From positions 1 to 20,360 of IMG/VR virus record IMGVR_UViG_3300027983_000148: a DNA stretch of 20,360 nt; one strand, written 5' to 3'. A program made the translations under genes and the position numbers. The notes under the pieces are model-generated. The model searched no databases and was not told the DNA's origin. It was given only the letters and a program-made list of their open reading frames with translations. Source of the DNA: a virus. Position 1 is the first letter of the stretch. Every line of letters starts with the position of its first letter. Below are positions 1 through 9,312 of the stretch, one piece after another.

Positions 1-1523
1 TGCTCCTTTATTTTAGTTAGTGCTGCGACAATTAAATCTTCCATCGTTGGTTTTGGCGGGAACATTCTGGACCTTGCCGCGCTTAGTTTGCCCCGTATCG
101 ACGGCCCGAACCTGGCGGTGATAAAACCCAGTGCGAAAAAAACAACAGCGGAAATTAATCCAGCCCGCAACATCGACGCAATCTGAGCTAAGCCGCCATC
201 GAGCAATGGCACTTTCCTTTGATCGGGGTCTTTTTTTGGGTCATAATTTGGCCTGATGCGGCGCAAGGCACTAGCAAGCTCATCTGCCCCGTTATATTCG
301 CTCTGGCTATGTAGTACCTCTCCGCTTGCTTTTTGCACTATTACCCTCGGTGAACCGCTTGCATAGCCAATCCCTGATACCGCCCAATCAGTTGGCCTAT
401 AGCATTGCAGTAACAGCTCGGGTGCAATGGCTGATAAGGCGGGATCGGTGTAAAGGTCTTTCCTTACCTGTTCGCATTCCTCAGCAGTGCCAATAACTGT
501 GATCCGGAGTTTGGCCCTATCATCGGTTAGGTCTTTATTTCCGCCCGTTTGCATCGCCTCATACGCCTGTTTTCTGGTACATGACTTGCCGTCTATCCAG
601 TATCGTTCTATTGTTGCGTCCAGTTTCGAACGATCAACGCCGAAAGGAAAATCCTGCGTAATAATTTTAGGCTGAAATTCCTCCGGTAACGGGAACGGGA
701 AAACATCAACGCCAGCCGCAAAATTTCCATCGGGCAAAAGTTCTAAATATTCGCAGCAATCTTTTTTCCAAACGCCTACCTGCTTACCGTCTTTATACAA
801 CGCAAGCTGGTTTGTGTTTTTCTCGCTAAACTGTCTCCACTCATAGCCCTTTGCGTCCTCAACTGAGGAACAGGCTAGGGTGCCCCAAGTTCTTGCGGGG
901 GGCCGTGCGCCATAACTCACTTGGTTCGCAGGTGGTGGTGGTGGTGGTGGCGCCAAAAGGAAAACAGCCCAGCCGCCGCCGCCTGAGATCCATCTGGCTT
1001 TAAATTCAGCGGGTGACATCCACTCATATTTATTTTCACCGGGGAAATTGTTGTCGAGAATCGCCGCCCACTTTTCGCTTAGGTGAACAATATTTACCAT
1101 GTGAGCAATTTTCGCCCGTCCGTATCTAGGACTATAGCCATAGGTGATAGATGGCATCCTGCCCGTGGCTAGCGAAAGCTTGATTAAAGCAGGGTCATTA
1201 CCCTCATACTGCAAGTACTGAGCGTCGGCGCAATACTTCTCCATCATTTTTTCAGTCTTTGACGGGTAGCCACCCCCCGCCTCAAGTGTCATTTTCTTCT
1301 GAAATCCCAGAACACTATCTACATTTTGCCACCTTCCCGAGTGTTCAATGCTGGTAAAAACGCAAAGGCCAGCGCCGTCTTTGCCGCCGACATTTTTCAT
1401 CTGCTGTGTCCCGGGCAGGTCAACTTGAATCTCTTCCGTCCCGTCCGGTGAGGTGCGCCCGCCTTCCGTGGATATCCCTTCGACTGACTGAAAAAGTAAC
1501 GCAGATAAAATTAAGCCGATCAT
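1..1523 (-). CDS. Large secreted/membrane protein with papain-like peptidase domain (partial)
   Basis: Open frame of 507 codons from ATG at 1523 (AGGAG 8 bases upstream) to the left edge, with no stop in the window. A short hydrophobic start (MIGLILSALLFQSVEG) may be a signal peptide. Residues 45-190 resemble a papain-like cysteine peptidase: Cys54 in GAGLCVFTS, His141 in KIAHMVNIVHL, Asp157-Asn159 in ILDNNFPG, then GGGGWAVFLLAPP. Seven prolines follow (192-198). Residues 335-434 (KLRITVIGTAEECEQVRKDL to RPNYDPKKDPD) look thioredoxin-like in strand order but lack a CxxC pair. Residues 455-470 (GLISAVVFFALGFITA) form a membrane segment followed by a basic stretch. Function unknown; it lies after the fibre genes, where lysis or entry genes often sit. 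Confidence 0.82.
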   Translation of the reverse strand, partial: MIGLILSALLFQSVEGISTEGGRTSPDGTEEIQVDLPGTQQMKNVGGKDGAGLCVFTSIEHSGRWQNVDSVLGFQKKMTLEAGGGYPSKTEKMMEKYCADAQYLQYEGNDPALIKLSLATGRMPSITYGYSPRYGRAKIAHMVNIVHLSEKWAAILDNNFPGENKYEWMSPAEFKARWISGGGGWAVFLLAPPPPPPPANQVSYGARPPARTWGTLACSSVEDAKGYEWRQFSEKNTNQLALYKDGKQVGVWKKDCCEYLELLPDGNFAAGVDVFPFPLPEEFQPKIITQDFPFGVDRSKLDATIERYWIDGKSCTRKQAYEAMQTGGNKDLTDDRAKLRITVIGTAEECEQVRKDLYTDPALSAIAPELLLQCYRPTDWAVSGIGYASGSPRVIVQKASGEVLHSQSEYNGADELASALRRIRPNYDPKKDPDQRKVPLLDGGLAQIASMLRAGLISAVVFFALGFITARFGPSIRGKLSAARSRMFPPKPTMEDLIVAALTKIKE

Positions 1524-1655
1524 GGTTGCTTCTCCTGTGGGTTTAAGCCTGAAATTAAAATAACGCCTTTAGATCCCCGTTAAACTTTCAATTGTTAAAG
1601 CGGCTTCAACTTGGTTTGATTTTATTTGCCATATTTAAAATCAATAATAAGTTCA

Positions 1656-2801
1656 TTACTCAAAAGCTCCAATACTAGGTGTGGTGGCAGAACGGGTGTA
1701 TCCACGCTGATCCAAACCACTAATAGGTGCAGCATTGCTGATGGTTGCGCTGCCAGTGCCGATGGCAGAACTACCAGCGCCAAGTGCCATGGTGAAGGTA
1801 GGGCCGCCATTATTTTGCAGGGTGCCAAGGTTTAAATCTCCGGTGGTTACCGTGGTGGCCCAAGCACTAAGTCCCGCTTGGGTGACGAGATTATTAGCAG
1901 CAGTTGCGCCAGAAATAAGATTAACAGTACCAAAACCGGAGAAATCGCCGCCCGAGGTGCTATTAGCGATGATAGTATTTGCGATGTTGAGGGTGCCGTT
2001 GTTACGGATGCCGCCGCCGTTGAAGGCAGCCGAATTACCAGAGAGGGTGGAATTGGAGACGGTGAGGGTGCCGGCGTTAAAAATGCCGCCGCCGTTGAAG
2101 GCAGCCGAATTACCAGAGAAGGTGGAATTGGAGACGGTGAGGGTGCCGTTGTTAAAAATGCCGCCGCCGTTGAAGGCAGCCGAATTACCAGAGAAGGTGG
2201 AATTGGAGACGGTGAGGGTGCCGTTGTTAAAAATGCCGCCGCCGCCGTTGGTAACCGAATTGCCAGAGAGGGTGGAATTGGAGACGGAGAGGGTGCCGGC
2301 GCCGGTGTTAAAAATGGCGCCGCCGCGGAAAGCGGTATTACCCGAGATGGTGGAATTGGAGACGGCAAGGGTGCCGGCGCCGGTGTTAAAGGCCCCACCA
2401 AAGCCGGTTGTTTTTGCGCCGGAAACGGTCACGCCTGAGATAGTTAAATTCCCACCCGCATCGATGGTAAAGATACTGAAATTACGAGCGGAATCACCGT
2501 TATTACCGCTGATAGTGAGGGAAGAACCCGGCCCGGTGATGGTGAGTGTGCCAGCCGTCGCCGTCGTAACAATGCTTGGCAACGCAGAATTAAGCACGAT
2601 GGTAAATGGTGCTGATCCAGACGCAAAAGCAAAGGTGATTTCATTGTTGCCGCTGGTAGAATTTGAATCAATGATTGCCTGTCGCAGTGAACCAGCCCCA
2701 GAATCATTAGTATTGGTGACGATAAATTCCGTATCGGTAGGTGTAACCCCACTAGAGATAGTTCGATTTTTAATCTTGTTGGTTAAATTTGAAATGGTCA
2801 T
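1656..2801 (-). CDS. Parallel beta-helix adhesin-like protein, anchor-Q type
   Basis: 381 residues. N-terminal TEFIVTNTNDSGAGSLRQAI and a following ITF strand are the usual start of bacterial surface beta-helix proteins; then repeated turns of NSTFSGNSAAFNGGGIFNNG and a C-terminal GLDQRGYTR...PSIGAFE, the end typical of the choice-of-anchor Q domain. Such proteins are normally bacterial cell-surface proteins, so here it most likely serves as a receptor-binding or carbohydrate-binding tail component acquired from a host. It has no signal peptide and no sorting tail after GAFE, consistent with incorporation into a virion. ATG in a 4-base overlap; no own ribosome site. Confidence 0.87.
   Translation of the reverse strand: MTISNLTNKIKNRTISSGVTPTDTEFIVTNTNDSGAGSLRQAIIDSNSTSGNNEITFAFASGSAPFTIVLNSALPSIVTTATAGTLTITGPGSSLTISGNNGDSARNFSIFTIDAGGNLTISGVTVSGAKTTGFGGAFNTGAGTLAVSNSTISGNTAFRGGAIFNTGAGTLSVSNSTLSGNSVTNGGGGIFNNGTLTVSNSTFSGNSAAFNGGGIFNNGTLTVSNSTFSGNSAAFNGGGIFNAGTLTVSNSTLSGNSAAFNGGGIRNNGTLNIANTIIANSTSGGDFSGFGTVNLISGATAANNLVTQAGLSAWATTVTTGDLNLGTLQNNGGPTFTMALGAGSSAIGTGSATISNAAPISGLDQRGYTRSATTPSIGAFE
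2020..2244 (-). repeat. 75-base tandem repeats in the beta-helix gene
   Basis: Three consecutive 75-base (25-residue) units at 2020-2094, 2095-2169 and 2170-2244. The second and third are identical at every base; the first differs at three positions. More diverged units of 75 to 78 bases continue up to about 2440. Each encodes one helical rung with the motif NSTFSGNSAAFNGGGIF. Identity over 75 bases points to very recent duplication or ongoing homogenisation. Confidence 0.94.
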
Positions 2802-3127
2802 GTAATTTCAACCCCGAACAAGTTAAAGCTAACGGAACCGTCGGCAGAGCGAACACTAACGACATCAGTAGCCAATAAAGTTATTCCAACCGTAATAAAA
2901 ACAGAATCATAAGCAGCAATTGAGGCATTGTAAACAATGTATTGCGAAGTCGCAATTGATGCACCAGATGGCCGAATTGCTATCCGAAAAAAAGCATCGG
3001 CGGCGGTCTGATTGCAAACTACCAAAGTGCTGACGATTGTACTCGTAGCAGCCGGAACCGTGTAAAGGGTTGTTAATGTTGCTGCTGCTGGAATCACTTG
3101 CCCTAACACCTTATTTACTTGTGGCAA
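2798..3127 (-). CDS. Small beta-rich virion or fibre-associated protein
   Basis: 109 residues of a widespread phage family: VLGQVIPAAATLTTLYTVPA, STIVSTLVVCNQTA, FFRIAIRPSGASIA, QYIVYNASIAAYDSVF and a final VSFNLFGVEIT. Typically found beside fibre genes; structure is likely a small beta sandwich, role unproven. The start is TTG at 3127, supported by AGGAGG exactly 8 bases upstream, which is inside the previous gene's LGGM codons. The stop overlaps the next ATG as ATGA. Confidence 0.83.
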   Translation of the reverse strand: MPQVNKVLGQVIPAAATLTTLYTVPAATSTIVSTLVVCNQTAADAFFRIAIRPSGASIATSQYIVYNASIAAYDSVFITVGITLLATDVVSVRSADGSVSFNLFGVEIT

Positions 3128-3128
3128 T

Positions 3129-3407
3129 TTACATTCCTCCTAAAAAAAACGGGTGAAATATATCTACTGTATTATCCCCCGTATTTGTTCCACTTAAATT
3201 TGCGACCGCTGTATTTGCAATCTGAGAATTACTAATCGTACCTACTAAATCCGAAGTGTTTTTGCTCACCACTAAAACATTTGCGTTTCCAGCAGCGTTT
3301 CCAATCCAGATTTTTCCATCCGTGGCGTTAAGCCCTAATTCTCCAGCAGCTAATGTAGGAGTATTCGTAGTCGTGTAGGATCTTTTTGGCTTAATTAAGT
3401 TAGCCAC
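3129..3407 (-). CDS. Short fibre-like protein sharing the fibre N-terminal domain
   Basis: 92 residues. The N-terminus (IKPKRSYTTTNTPTLAAGEL, then DGKIWIGNA) is a shorter relative of the first 50 residues of the 357-residue fibre, and the C-terminal part (NLSGTNTGDNT) resembles fibre shaft repeats. It ends FHPFFLGGM. It could be a minor fibre, a chaperone-like short fibre or a degraded fibre duplicate. Start is GTG immediately after the previous stop (TAA GTG), with GGAGG 10 bases upstream; that GGAGG is the Gly-Gly coding sequence of the preceding fibre's DGGTF end. Confidence 0.82.
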   Translation of the reverse strand: MANLIKPKRSYTTTNTPTLAAGELGLNATDGKIWIGNAAGNANVLVVSKNTSDLVGTISNSQIANTAVANLSGTNTGDNTVDIFHPFFLGGM

Positions 3408-4481
3408 TTAGAAGGTACCTCCGTCTATACTGGATGCACTGCTGAGGTAGTCCGTGCCAACGGTGGCCGCCGTTAAACTACTGCCACTTTTCTTAAATAT
3501 GCTGCCGTCTGCTGCCCCGGATAAGTCGCCACCTGTACCGCCTTTTCCCAAGGCAATCGCCGTGGAAGACCAGGTGCCAGTAGTGATAGTGCCGAGCGTT
3601 GTGATCGATGATTGGCCGACATAACTGGCGCTAACGATCAGTTGATTAGATCCGTTGACGCCGATGGTGCTGCTATCGGTTTTCACATTTAGCGTCGTGC
3701 CGCTGTAGGTCAAAGCGGTGCCTGCAGCAATCGATCCAGCCCCAGAAAATTGGGTGAAGGAAAGGGAAGTAGCGCCAAGGGTAATCGGATTAGCCGTCGT
3801 CAAAACATAGCCCTGGTTAGCGCCTAAGGTACCCTCTTCAACAAAAGTGAACATCCCAGCAGTTACTTCTGCCGAGGTGTCTGCATCGGTCGCACGGTTC
3901 CACGAACCGGAGGCAACAACATAAACACCGTTTTCACTGCCCGTGCTTTGATTTTTTACTAAGATTCTATCACCTGCAATAACTGACACACCGTCGATAG
4001 TTTGGGCTGCCGAAAGGGTGATGCTGGCCGTCGTCGCCGCTCGCACTGAATCCTTGACATCTAGTCCGCTTCTCGCCGCATCGACATAGGCTTTAGTGGC
4101 TGCGTCCTGCGCTGAGGTAGGGTCACTAAGGTTAGTGATTTTATTAGAGTTTAGACTTACATTGGCTGAGGGGGAGGCAAATTGATCCAGCCTAAATCCG
4201 GTTACAAATGTGCTAATTCCTGCGCCTGAGACGGTGCCGGTGAGTACAGTTGCATTAGTAAAAGTGTTAGTCGTGCCGCTGAATGTTTGTGTGGACGTAA
4301 GTGCAGCAAATGCACCCGCACCGCCAATCGCAATGACGCTAGTAGCATTTCCCCCCGAGTCGCCGTTTCCGTAATAAAGGATTCCTGAGACCTCATTAAA
4401 GGCTAGTTCGGCGTTTGCCAGTCCAGAGGGTGCGCCTGATGCGCCGGTAGTGCGTCGTTTAATTCTTAATGTATTCGGCAT
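3408..4481 (-). CDS. Tail fibre protein
   Basis: 357 residues. The N-terminal region (RIKRRTTGASGAPSGLANAE, then LYYGNG) is a known fibre-anchor style; the middle carries the very common fibre segment LNSNKITNLSDPTSAQDAAT, KAYVDAARSGLDVKDSVRAA, followed by ILVKNQSTGSENGVYVV, ATDADTSAEVTAGMFTFVEE and ITLGATSLSFTQFSGAG, a domain found in many tail fibres. The C-terminal part is low-complexity Ser/Thr/Gly repeats ending SSIDGGTF. Probably a trimeric receptor-binding fibre. ATG with AAAGGAA upstream. Confidence 0.9.
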   Translation of the reverse strand: MPNTLRIKRRTTGASGAPSGLANAELAFNEVSGILYYGNGDSGGNATSVIAIGGAGAFAALTSTQTFSGTTNTFTNATVLTGTVSGAGISTFVTGFRLDQFASPSANVSLNSNKITNLSDPTSAQDAATKAYVDAARSGLDVKDSVRAATTASITLSAAQTIDGVSVIAGDRILVKNQSTGSENGVYVVASGSWNRATDADTSAEVTAGMFTFVEEGTLGANQGYVLTTANPITLGATSLSFTQFSGAGSIAAGTALTYSGTTLNVKTDSSTIGVNGSNQLIVSASYVGQSSITTLGTITTGTWSSTAIALGKGGTGGDLSGAADGSIFKKSGSSLTAATVGTDYLSSASSIDGGTF

Positions 4482-5312: not shown

Positions 5313-6266
5313 TTAGCCCGTATAAAAACTATAGGACCCGTAGCCCATGGAGCTGCCGCCGTTGCTGTAGTTGATCGATACCGAATCTCCAGCCGTCACT
5401 GCGGTGCTCCCAGAGGGGTAGGATGAGCTTGTGTCAGCGGTAGCAGTAAATCCTGAGCCTACGCTGAGGCTGATGCTAACACCTGTACCGCCCATCATGT
5501 CGTAGGCCGAGAGATTATAATAAATGGTGCCAGTTGACCCTGCCGTAAATACTGTACCACCCGGTGAGCTACTGAAATTTGCAGATAAAGGATCCCCTGA
5601 GTTTGCTCCCGTCCCACTGTAGTTGGTGTCGCCAGAAACAAAACTGAACGGTGTAGGCGTTGGTGTAGGGGTTGGTGTAGGGGTTGGTGTAGGTGTTGGT
5701 GTAGGCGTTGGGGTAGGCGTTGGTGTTGGCGTTGGCGTTGGCGTAGGGGTAGGGGTAGGTGTAGGCGTTGGCGTTGGCGTTGGCGTTGGTGTAGGTGTTG
5801 GCGTTGGTGTAGGTGTTGGCGTTGGTGTTGGTGTTGGCGTTGGTGTGCATCCTGACTGGATCACGAGGGCACCATCACCACTAAAATCAACGGTGAATGT
5901 TTCGCCGGCCGCCAGCCATGTGACATTGCCATAGTCGTAATATCCGATCACTTTATTTTCGGCGCTGCTATTATACATTACGAAATATTGGAAACCGCTG
6001 GCCAGTGGCCCATCCCAAACGGCATCTTCTAAAATTAGCCTATAAATCCCGCTTGTTTGCGCCGATGAGGTTCGGACTAATGTTTTGTCGAATGTGCTGC
6101 TAGACGGCACAAATACAGTATCGGTAAGAGGCGGGGCAGAGTAAGTGCCCGTATCCGAATCGTTGACCCCCGCCGTCAGTCCGAGCTTTAAAACATCGTT
6201 CTGTAAATCATGTTTTTTCTCTGCAAGATCCTCGGTGAAACAATAAAAAATTTTCATGTCAGCCAT
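5313..6266 (-). CDS. Two-domain structural protein with (Thr-Pro)33 linker
   Basis: 317 residues in three parts. Residues 1-140 match a widespread small phage structural domain: a helical start ([17 protein letters not shown]) and [32 protein letters not shown] near the end. Residues 141-206 are 33 uninterrupted Thr-Pro pairs. Residues 207-317 are a Gly/Ser/Tyr-rich beta domain ending [13 protein letters not shown] rigid extended Thr-Pro rod of this length could hold the terminal domain well away from the particle, suggesting decoration or receptor contact. ATG at 6266 with AGGAG upstream. It is the last gene before the 112-base gap. Confidence 0.85.
5649..5846 (-). repeat. Hexanucleotide tandem repeat encoding (Thr-Pro)33
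   Basis: 198 bases made of 33 units of ACN CCN on the minus strand. Third positions vary (plus strand gttggc, gtaggc, gtgtag and others) so the protein repeat is perfect while the DNA is only quasi-repeated, indicating selection on the peptide. Copy-number change in steps of six bases would keep the frame and change only the linker length. The GT-rich complement has runs of GGGG and GG. Confidence 0.95.
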
Positions 6267-7771: not shown

Positions 7772-8854
7772 TTACGCACCTACCATAACTTTTAGATTTG
7801 AAAGCGGAAGGTTGCGCGTAAGCATTGCGGGCGCATCTAATAAAACTTGAGACGGCCTCACCCGAAAATTCATCGGCATAATGTAACTGTAGGGAAGCCC
7901 CTGTTCAAACAAGGTCGTGAAATAGTTATATGTGGGGTCTGCCAATTCTCCATCGTTTTGCAAATACCAGCGGAGTCTTCCTATTTTCGGGCTAGGTATG
8001 CCAGCCGAGCCAGCGAGAAAAATATTGATTTCGAGTCCGATGACTTGCGCCGTTGGATTTGCGAGAGGGATTAATCCCTCATACTCCGGTAGATCGTTAA
8101 ACGGCATTTTATAAGCTTGTTCCCCATAAAACAGAACGAAAGATAATCCATCGAACTGACCGATAAGTGATTCATTAGAATCAAAAACTTGAAGCGGATC
8201 TTCAAACGGTAAATAATTTAGTTGGGTGGTTAGCGCTGTAGTCCGGTCGATTGGACTTTCGCCGTCCTCATAATTGACTTCAGTAAAATAAGGCTCATTT
8301 ACATTTTTATTAGAGTACATCCAGCCCGCCGGTCTTTTTACTGCGTCGGGGTCGTCTGGAGAGTAGGGATAGACGCCAGAAAATTCTAATGGGTCTAATA
8401 GCAGCGATTCAATATCTTCTGGGTCGGCATTTAAAAAATCGTATTTTAACCTGTTTTTTTTCAGTTTACTAATCGGTTTAAATTTGTGTTGCGTTAACGG
8501 AATAACGGCTAAGGTATTTTTGTATCGTGGGCCTGTAAATTCCAATTCGTACAGCGGAGGTAAACCGCCAAAACCACGCATTCCCCAGCTGTTAATATCA
8601 GATAAATCAAAGTAGTAATTAGGGAAAGATGTCGAAGGCATGTAACGGCGATTATAAGATTTCCCTAAAATGGTGCGGTCGTATTTAGGTTCGGGCACCC
8701 TAATTAAATTATACCATTGAGTGGAATTTTCTCTGAGCGTAGAAATAGAGGCGTTATCGAAAGTAACATAGCCAGTGCACACTCCTACCGGGGAAAACCT
8801 CCGGTTTTGCGAAAAACAAGTTCCATCTAATTTTATCCCGTATCCGTGTATCAC
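7772..8854 (-). CDS. Hypothetical large tail-tip or baseplate-region protein
   Basis: 360 residues, family not recognised. The frame is open up to a TTG at 8935, but GTG at 8854 is better: it forms GTGA with the preceding stop, has AGGGG 7 bases upstream, and avoids an 85-base overlap. The protein is aromatic- and Pro-rich (PSTSFPNYYFDLSD, SGVYPYSPDDPDAVKR, NYEDGESPIDRTT) with a late hydrophobic segment VIGLEINIFLAGSAGI and a C-terminus MNFRVRPSQVLLDAPAML. No catalytic motif is evident. Size and position suggest a tail-tip component. Confidence 0.75.
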   Translation of the reverse strand: MIHGYGIKLDGTCFSQNRRFSPVGVCTGYVTFDNASISTLRENSTQWYNLIRVPEPKYDRTILGKSYNRRYMPSTSFPNYYFDLSDINSWGMRGFGGLPPLYELEFTGPRYKNTLAVIPLTQHKFKPISKLKKNRLKYDFLNADPEDIESLLLDPLEFSGVYPYSPDDPDAVKRPAGWMYSNKNVNEPYFTEVNYEDGESPIDRTTALTTQLNYLPFEDPLQVFDSNESLIGQFDGLSFVLFYGEQAYKMPFNDLPEYEGLIPLANPTAQVIGLEINIFLAGSAGIPSPKIGRLRWYLQNDGELADPTYNYFTTLFEQGLPYSYIMPMNFRVRPSQVLLDAPAMLTRNLPLSNLKVMVGA

Positions 8855-9312
8855 ATTGTCACCCCTGTTATTTCGAGACGATATGAACAGTCTCCGCCGA
8901 AAGTATACCCCAGAAAAATTGTATTTAGCCCGCAAGTTGTTTCGCTGTCTGGTGTGCCAGTGGGTAAGGCCGGAACAATCCCAGAAACAGCAATTGACAG
9001 GGCTTGTTCGTGCGGTGTTGCCGTGTTTGTAATTCTTGGGTCAGTAACAATTAAATTGAAGGGAACTGCCGGCGACGATGACCCGGGCAAATAATTTACG
9101 GCGCAGGGATTAGGCCGGGTGAATATTACTGCGGTGGGTGTGCGTGGATACAATTCGCACCCCACAGTACCGATAGGAGAAGTGGAGTACCACACACCCG
9201 AAAAACTCGAAGGGTAACGCCCGTTCCATTTGCAGATGTATATGGCGTAATTTTGGGGCACAATGTCCGCTGTCGGATTAGCTGCAGGGTCGTAACAGTT
9301 GTAGTCTGGCAT
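8851..9312 (-). CDS. Hypothetical Cys- and Pro-rich tail-region protein
   Basis: 153 residues, unknown. Composition is unusual for a cytoplasmic phage protein: rich in Pro, Thr, Tyr and with several cysteines (in MPDYNCYDP, AIYICKWNG, VGCELYPR, PNPCAVNYL, TTCGLN, GDCSYRL), many near aromatic residues. It looks like a compact beta-sandwich. ATG at 9312, 3 bases after the previous stop with no clear ribosome site, so coupled translation is likely; the stop overlaps the next gene as GTGA. No signal peptide or membrane segment is visible. Confidence 0.72.
   Translation of the reverse strand: MPDYNCYDPAANPTADIVPQNYAIYICKWNGRYPSSFSGVWYSTSPIGTVGCELYPRTPTAVIFTRPNPCAVNYLPGSSSPAVPFNLIVTDPRITNTATPHEQALSIAVSGIVPALPTGTPDSETTCGLNTIFLGYTFGGDCSYRLEITGVTM

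Follow-up and report, generated by a model that had tools for sequence, protein, structure and literature searches.

A papain-like peptidase paired with a thioredoxin-like domain in planctomycete phages, a candidate lysis enzyme

An open frame at the end of a viral record

Which protein is encoded by the stop-free frame at the beginning of this viral sequence, and what could it do for the phage? The window analysed here is an entire IMG/VR virus record of 20,360 bases. Translation of its minus strand from position 1523 down to 3 gave 507 codons without a stop, beginning at an ATG. The initial annotation had described a frame missing from ordinary ORF lists and preceded by a good ribosome site; our data agree, as an ORF listing shows the frame only if open ends are allowed, and AGGAGA lies 7 bases ahead of the ATG. 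The gene is truncated at its 3′ end because the record itself stops at base 1. Full-length relatives sharing the “..KKLKE” end continue for about 8–20 further residues, which suggests that the window protein is short of only this C-terminal stretch. The following features were assigned:

3–1523, minus strand: gene of the two-domain envelope protein (507 codons, 3′ end cut at the end of the record; homologues)
1531–1536, minus strand: AGGAGA ribosome site (sequence)
1476–1523, minus strand: probable short signal peptide, residues 1–16 (hydropathy; clearer signals or N-terminal anchors in relatives)
948–1466, minus strand: predicted papain-like domain, residues 20–192 (AlphaFold; Foldseek against PDB and BFVD)
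1362–1364, minus strand: Cys54, presumed nucleophile, first residue of helix 54–65 (conservation; DSSP)
1101–1103, minus strand: His141, presumed general base, in strand 138–148 (conservation; DSSP)
1047–1055, minus strand: Asp157-Asn158-Asn159, presumed to hold the third triad residue, Asp157 following strand 153–156 (conservation; DSSP)
930–950, minus strand: Pro7 linker, residues 192–198 (translation; split-gene relatives)
240–647, minus strand: predicted thioredoxin-like domain without CxxC, residues 293–428 (AlphaFold; Foldseek PDB matches to DsbD-gamma and thioredoxins)
117–173, minus strand: C-terminal membrane helix, residues 451–469 (hydropathy)
3–116, minus strand: basic tail, presumed cytoplasmic, residues 470–507, incomplete (translation; longer relatives)

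Searches of Pfam, PHROGs, NCBIfam and PDB sequences assigned neither domain to a family, and no relatives were found in the annotated phage collection INPHARED. A whole-protein scan of viral contigs also returned no relatives, because the automatic patterns landed in variable stretches. When only the 60 residues surrounding the His and Asp motifs were used as query, relatives were retrieved from 28 viral contigs, with 41–71% identity over the aligned part and 41–63% identity to the window protein for full-length relatives. Nucleotide differences from the full-length relatives amounted to about 0.34, 0.27 and 0.66 at codon positions 1, 2 and 3, respectively. With viral relatives in 28 contigs and differences mostly at the third codon position, the frame is not a product of chance.

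An alignment of these relatives, used as query, detected 101 viral contigs (80 kept) and, in bacterial genomes, ten loci whose titles were all planctomycete except for one “uncultured bacterium”. Homologues were present in 2 of 392 planctomycete genomes, the query’s own genome being one of the two; together with the ten genome loci, this fits carriage by phages or prophages rather than a core host gene. The “host-type” protein proposed initially thus has to be replaced by a phage gene, given more than 100 viral contigs against so few planctomycete genomes. The loci L039, L034 and L141 sit among terminase, head-tail or tape-measure genes, and the remainder of the window consists of phage genes in a same-strand run, including tail and fibre genes, a portal gene (PHROG E 2.4e-131) and a major head protein gene (PHROG E 2.5e-79). 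We conclude that the open frame is a real gene of phages infecting Planctomycetes bacteria.

Two domains and their obligate pairing

The AlphaFold model of the N-terminal domain (200 residues), computed from 38 non-redundant sequences, reached a pLDDT of 90.5, and Foldseek matched it to papain-like enzymes in the PDB with E-values from 2e-5 to 1e-3. At the top were CtaG and the phytochelatin synthase Alr0975 (E 2e-5 to 5e-4), with further matches to the C39 peptidases PCAT1 and ComA, the Bacillus anthracis C39-like peptidase 3ERV and cathepsin S; the pseudomurein endoisopeptidase PeiR was matched with E 3e-3. Among viral models (BFVD), the matches included Lysin A of mycobacteriophage MOOREtheMARYer, two cyanophage proteins named lysozyme, and papain-like domains within large phage virion proteins. 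The TM-scores of 0.4–0.57 correspond to a superfamily-level match, and no significant Pfam or NCBIfam match to the Peptidase_C39 profile (MEROPS C39 / Pfam) was obtained for this domain.

Based on the model, residues ~20–192 are predicted to adopt the papain-like (clan CA) fold, with its typical layout of a Cys at the N-terminus of a helix followed by a sheet bearing His and Asp/Asn. The papain-like domain claimed in the initial annotation is therefore supported by both model and fold matches, and Cys54, His141, Asp157-Asn158 and the Pro7 linker lie where they had been placed. Rather than varying among homologues, a possibility raised there as an argument against the assignment, Cys54, His141 and Asp157-Asn158-Asn159 are invariant in 74/74. 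Cys, His and Asp/Asn occur in this order in all 38 sequences of the non-redundant alignment and also in the distant homologues L141 and L142, which retain the Cys, GGAHMV and DNN. By analogy with C39 enzymes, Asp157 would be the third triad residue, Asn158 or Asn159 being the alternatives.

The C-terminal half was modelled with a pLDDT of 79, its core strands and helices reaching around 90–97, and both the DSSP order and the Foldseek matches reveal the thioredoxin topology (beta-alpha-beta ... beta-beta-alpha), in line with the thioredoxin-like region suspected earlier. However, the CxxC active site is absent from all 60 sequences of this domain, so that it is not a disulfide oxidoreductase. 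The membrane segment and envelope location proposed before also hold, with hydropathy placing a helix at residues 451–469; helix and basic tail together are consistent with an N-outside anchor. As for the possible signal peptide, relatives carry clearer signals, and the window copy’s own is short (MIGLILSALLFQSVEG) and weak. A BcsF identity suggested for the C-terminal region by NCBIfam (E 0.0035, far under the cut-off) was rejected as a coincidence of membrane helices.

A deduplicated set of 76 peptidase ORFs was inspected. Peptidase and thioredoxin-like domain are fused, as in the window, in 46 of them. Among the 30 unfused ORFs, the next gene carries the thioredoxin-like domain in 27, and the other three are cut by contig ends, leaving 27/27 evaluable cases paired. 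The reciprocal query with the thioredoxin-like domain detected 57 contigs, 55 of which encode the peptidase directly before it; the two others start within 80 bases of the locus end (55/55 evaluable). These counts are not independent, since many contigs are related or near-identical, though the lineages are diverse. In split-gene relatives the peptidase ORF stops just past the Pro7 linker, and the separate thioredoxin-like partner bears its own signal and C-terminal helix. Peptidase and thioredoxin-like domain hence form an obligate pair, as a fusion or as adjacent genes, whose carriers are Planctomycetota phages or prophages.

Genomic neighbourhood and search for other lysins

Directly after the pair, a small membrane protein is encoded in 38 of 61 contigs; behind other late genes the rate is 16%. 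The 23 negatives include at least five in which the ORF caller erred, since a search located a GWKTTEFW gene there. In several lineages, the next gene encodes a GYKT protein, which either stands by itself or has a membrane helix fused to its N-terminus. Neither this third partner nor the obligate pairing had been noticed in the initial annotation. PHROG holin matches of these small proteins are weak (E 0.018 and 0.17), and among GWKTTEFW-bearing phages without the peptidase a known lysin lies within three genes in 3/53.

The GWKTTEFW proteins are part of a broad family, seen in many viral contigs (L143–L221), whose members are small membrane proteins with K[PA]G[WY]KTTEFW at their start; they are candidate holins, and the family is unmatched in the annotated phage collection. 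Its neighbours in phage contigs (L166–L221) include one caspase-domain, one tubulin/FtsZ-like and one trypsin-like protein.

The position of the module varies between genomes. In phages of the window type it follows the tail genes and precedes the integrase, in L141 and L142 it stands directly before the terminase, and in L245 and L262 it lies between the tail-tube and tape-measure genes. Upstream neighbouring ORFs are co-oriented with the module in 220 of 231 cases. This varied placement indicates that the module is moved as one piece inside late regions, which speaks for a shared late function and at the same time undercuts reasoning from a single canonical lysis position. The order in L141 is a coil-plus-membrane-helix protein (overlapping the peptidase start), peptidase, thioredoxin-like protein, membrane protein, terminase and portal. 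It is similar to that of lambda and P22, where lysis genes are followed by the terminase.

Several further observations concern individual genes. Just upstream of the gene in the window, 1656–2801 (minus strand) encodes a 381-aa protein with tandem “TLTVSNSTxSGNSAAFNGGGIxN” repeats resembling those of polymorphic outer membrane proteins; it is probably a beta-helical adhesin or spike, while its match to Chlam_PMP (E 2.5) is below the cut-off. A 317-aa tail-region ORF at 5313–6266 (minus strand) contains a very long Thr-Pro repeat of about 35 TP units and likely serves a protein of the virion surface as its stalk or linker. The distant peptidase homologue in L142 (9797–10474, plus strand) has a lipoprotein-like signal (LLILCIGC), and the enzyme may thus be lipid-anchored in some phages. 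In the planctomycete prophage L140, a 305-aa protein with a nucleoside-deoxyribosyltransferase/TIR-like start (KPFCFVLMPFSKEFDDVYQIGI) is encoded divergently from the lysis-like module (2528–3445, plus strand), and L141 carries a different TIR-like protein (MKTKVFLSWGGATSRDIAKE) in the same place (8166–9041, minus strand). Both were assigned by eye from motifs; the L140 protein is possibly a defence gene.

Known lysins were searched for in the related phages. Profiles for Amidase_2, NlpC/P60, SLT, M15_3, phage lysozyme, GH108, CHAP and M23 gave no match in 31–33 related phage records, and the lysin of an added phage (L187) was detected as a positive control for GH108. Two nearly complete records were examined through their called genes: those of G020 match 23 Pfam families, none of which is a lysin family, and for G001 the best 25 of 38 Pfam families likewise include no lysin. 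As IMG/VR classes the carrier records as linear, they are possibly incomplete, and the carrier phages may encode another, unrecognised lysin. A search of the literature for a lysin or lysis enzyme described for planctomycete phages found none.

A proposed role in lysis and comparison with known systems

We consider it slightly more probable than not that the window protein is an exported, membrane-tethered peptidoglycan peptidase, that is, the lysin of a non-canonical lysis module. The results show the fold, the conserved residues, the export and anchor features, the obligate pairing, the late-gene co-orientation, the phage origin and the absence of the lysin families searched; the substrate, the timing and the roles of the two partners we infer as follows. 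The gene would be expressed late, together with the structural proteins, and its product exported, so that the papain-like domain (Cys54-His141-Asp157) and the redox-dead thioredoxin-like domain would reside in the periplasm while the C-terminal helix tethers them to the inner membrane. There, the cysteine peptidase would cut peptide cross-links of peptidoglycan. The thioredoxin-like domain might position, hold back or scaffold the peptidase. A holin-like timer function might fall to the small protein of GWKTTEFW or GYKT type that is usually encoded next in the membrane-protein position. The modelled catalytic domain is of a fold known to cut peptidoglycan, with Lysin A and PeiR among its matches. 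Still, its chemistry need not be peptidoglycan cleavage, because the nearest solved folds include acyltransferases (phytochelatin synthase and CtaG).

Of the roles guessed initially (lysis, superinfection control, or entry through the host envelope), gene context favours lysis. A tethered protease might instead serve superinfection exclusion or another alteration of the host envelope, its periplasmic target being a receptor, a pilus or the ejection protein of an incoming phage. Integrases are present in many carrier phages, exclusion proteins are often exported and anchored as this one is, and the invariant redox-dead partner suggests specific protein binding. We nevertheless regard this role as unlikely, since in nearly all contigs the gene shares the orientation of late structural genes rather than being placed among lysogeny genes, is conserved across very different phages, and occurs in carriers in which no standard lysin family was found.

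Less likely again is a maturation or ejection factor, for which the peptidase would process exported virion proteins (of tail, adhesin or other kinds) or travel in the virion to assist DNA entry. The gene does often adjoin tail-fibre, adhesin or tape-measure genes, and the viral models include papain-like domains in large virion proteins; but a signal peptide or N-terminal anchor combined with a C-terminal membrane helix is unusual in virion parts, and no tail gene is linked to the peptidase as strictly as the thioredoxin-like and small membrane proteins are. The best PDB matches, CtaG and Alr0975, could also be taken to indicate a transferase that moves an acyl group onto an envelope compound. 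This appears quite improbable: the C39 peptidases score close behind, TM-scores of only 0.45–0.57 make the rank of a fold uninformative on chemistry, and no biosynthetic gene was seen beside the module in the neighbourhoods read.

Only tentatively, and with a chance we put below even, do we go beyond the enzyme itself to propose a new lysis design in planctomycete phages, in which an exported papain-like wall peptidase, a redox-dead and membrane-tethered thioredoxin-like controller obligately joined to it by fusion or adjacency, and a small GYKT/GWKT membrane protein, mobile as one module, replace all known lysin families. Planctomycetes have an unusual envelope, and its peptidoglycan was long disputed. 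If the proposal is true, the lysis system of planctomycete phages is this strictly conserved module, present in over 100 phage contigs and so far without annotation; it would provide a marker gene for these phages, and how they leave their host cells would become a directly testable question. The fold and the general idea are already known; without precedent in the libraries searched are the architecture, the obligate pairing and the host group. If its role holds, the protein would be, to our knowledge, the first papain-like wall enzyme found to be served by a thioredoxin-like domain that is redox-dead.

The thioredoxins and the C-terminal domain of DsbD share the fold of the C-terminal domain but differ from it by their CxxC. 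PCAT1 and ComA, bacteriocin-processing peptidases of MEROPS family C39, have the same fold and Cys-His-Asp order as the window protein, which, however, comes without an ABC transporter or a double-glycine leader substrate and is predicted on the periplasmic rather than the cytoplasmic side. Alr0975 (C83) and CtaG, the best fold matches, are only 8–13% identical and belong to metal or natural-product chemistry, in contrast to a context of phage late genes. The archaeal-virus enzymes PeiW, PeiP and PeiR (C71) are likewise papain-like and cut wall peptides, but possess pseudomurein-binding repeats that the window protein lacks, and host and wall differ.

A further parallel is offered by the C39-like N5 domain of actinobacteriophage Lysin A (Bxz2 gp11; RedRaider gp55/gp56), also a papain-like phage cysteine peptidase domain encoded in a late region near small membrane proteins. 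The N5 domains of mycobacteriophage LysA have been likened to 3ERV (PMC3314691), the structural relative matched by both. In the Gordonia phage RedRaider, LysA consists of a C39 gene and a glycosyl hydrolase gene downstream of the structural genes, and three membrane-protein genes come next (PMC12821328). The partner of Lysin A, however, is a glycosidase or amidase with a wall-binding domain, whereas the window protein, in which no cell-wall-binding domain was found, is exported, has a redox-dead thioredoxin-like partner and a membrane anchor, and matches no sequence family.
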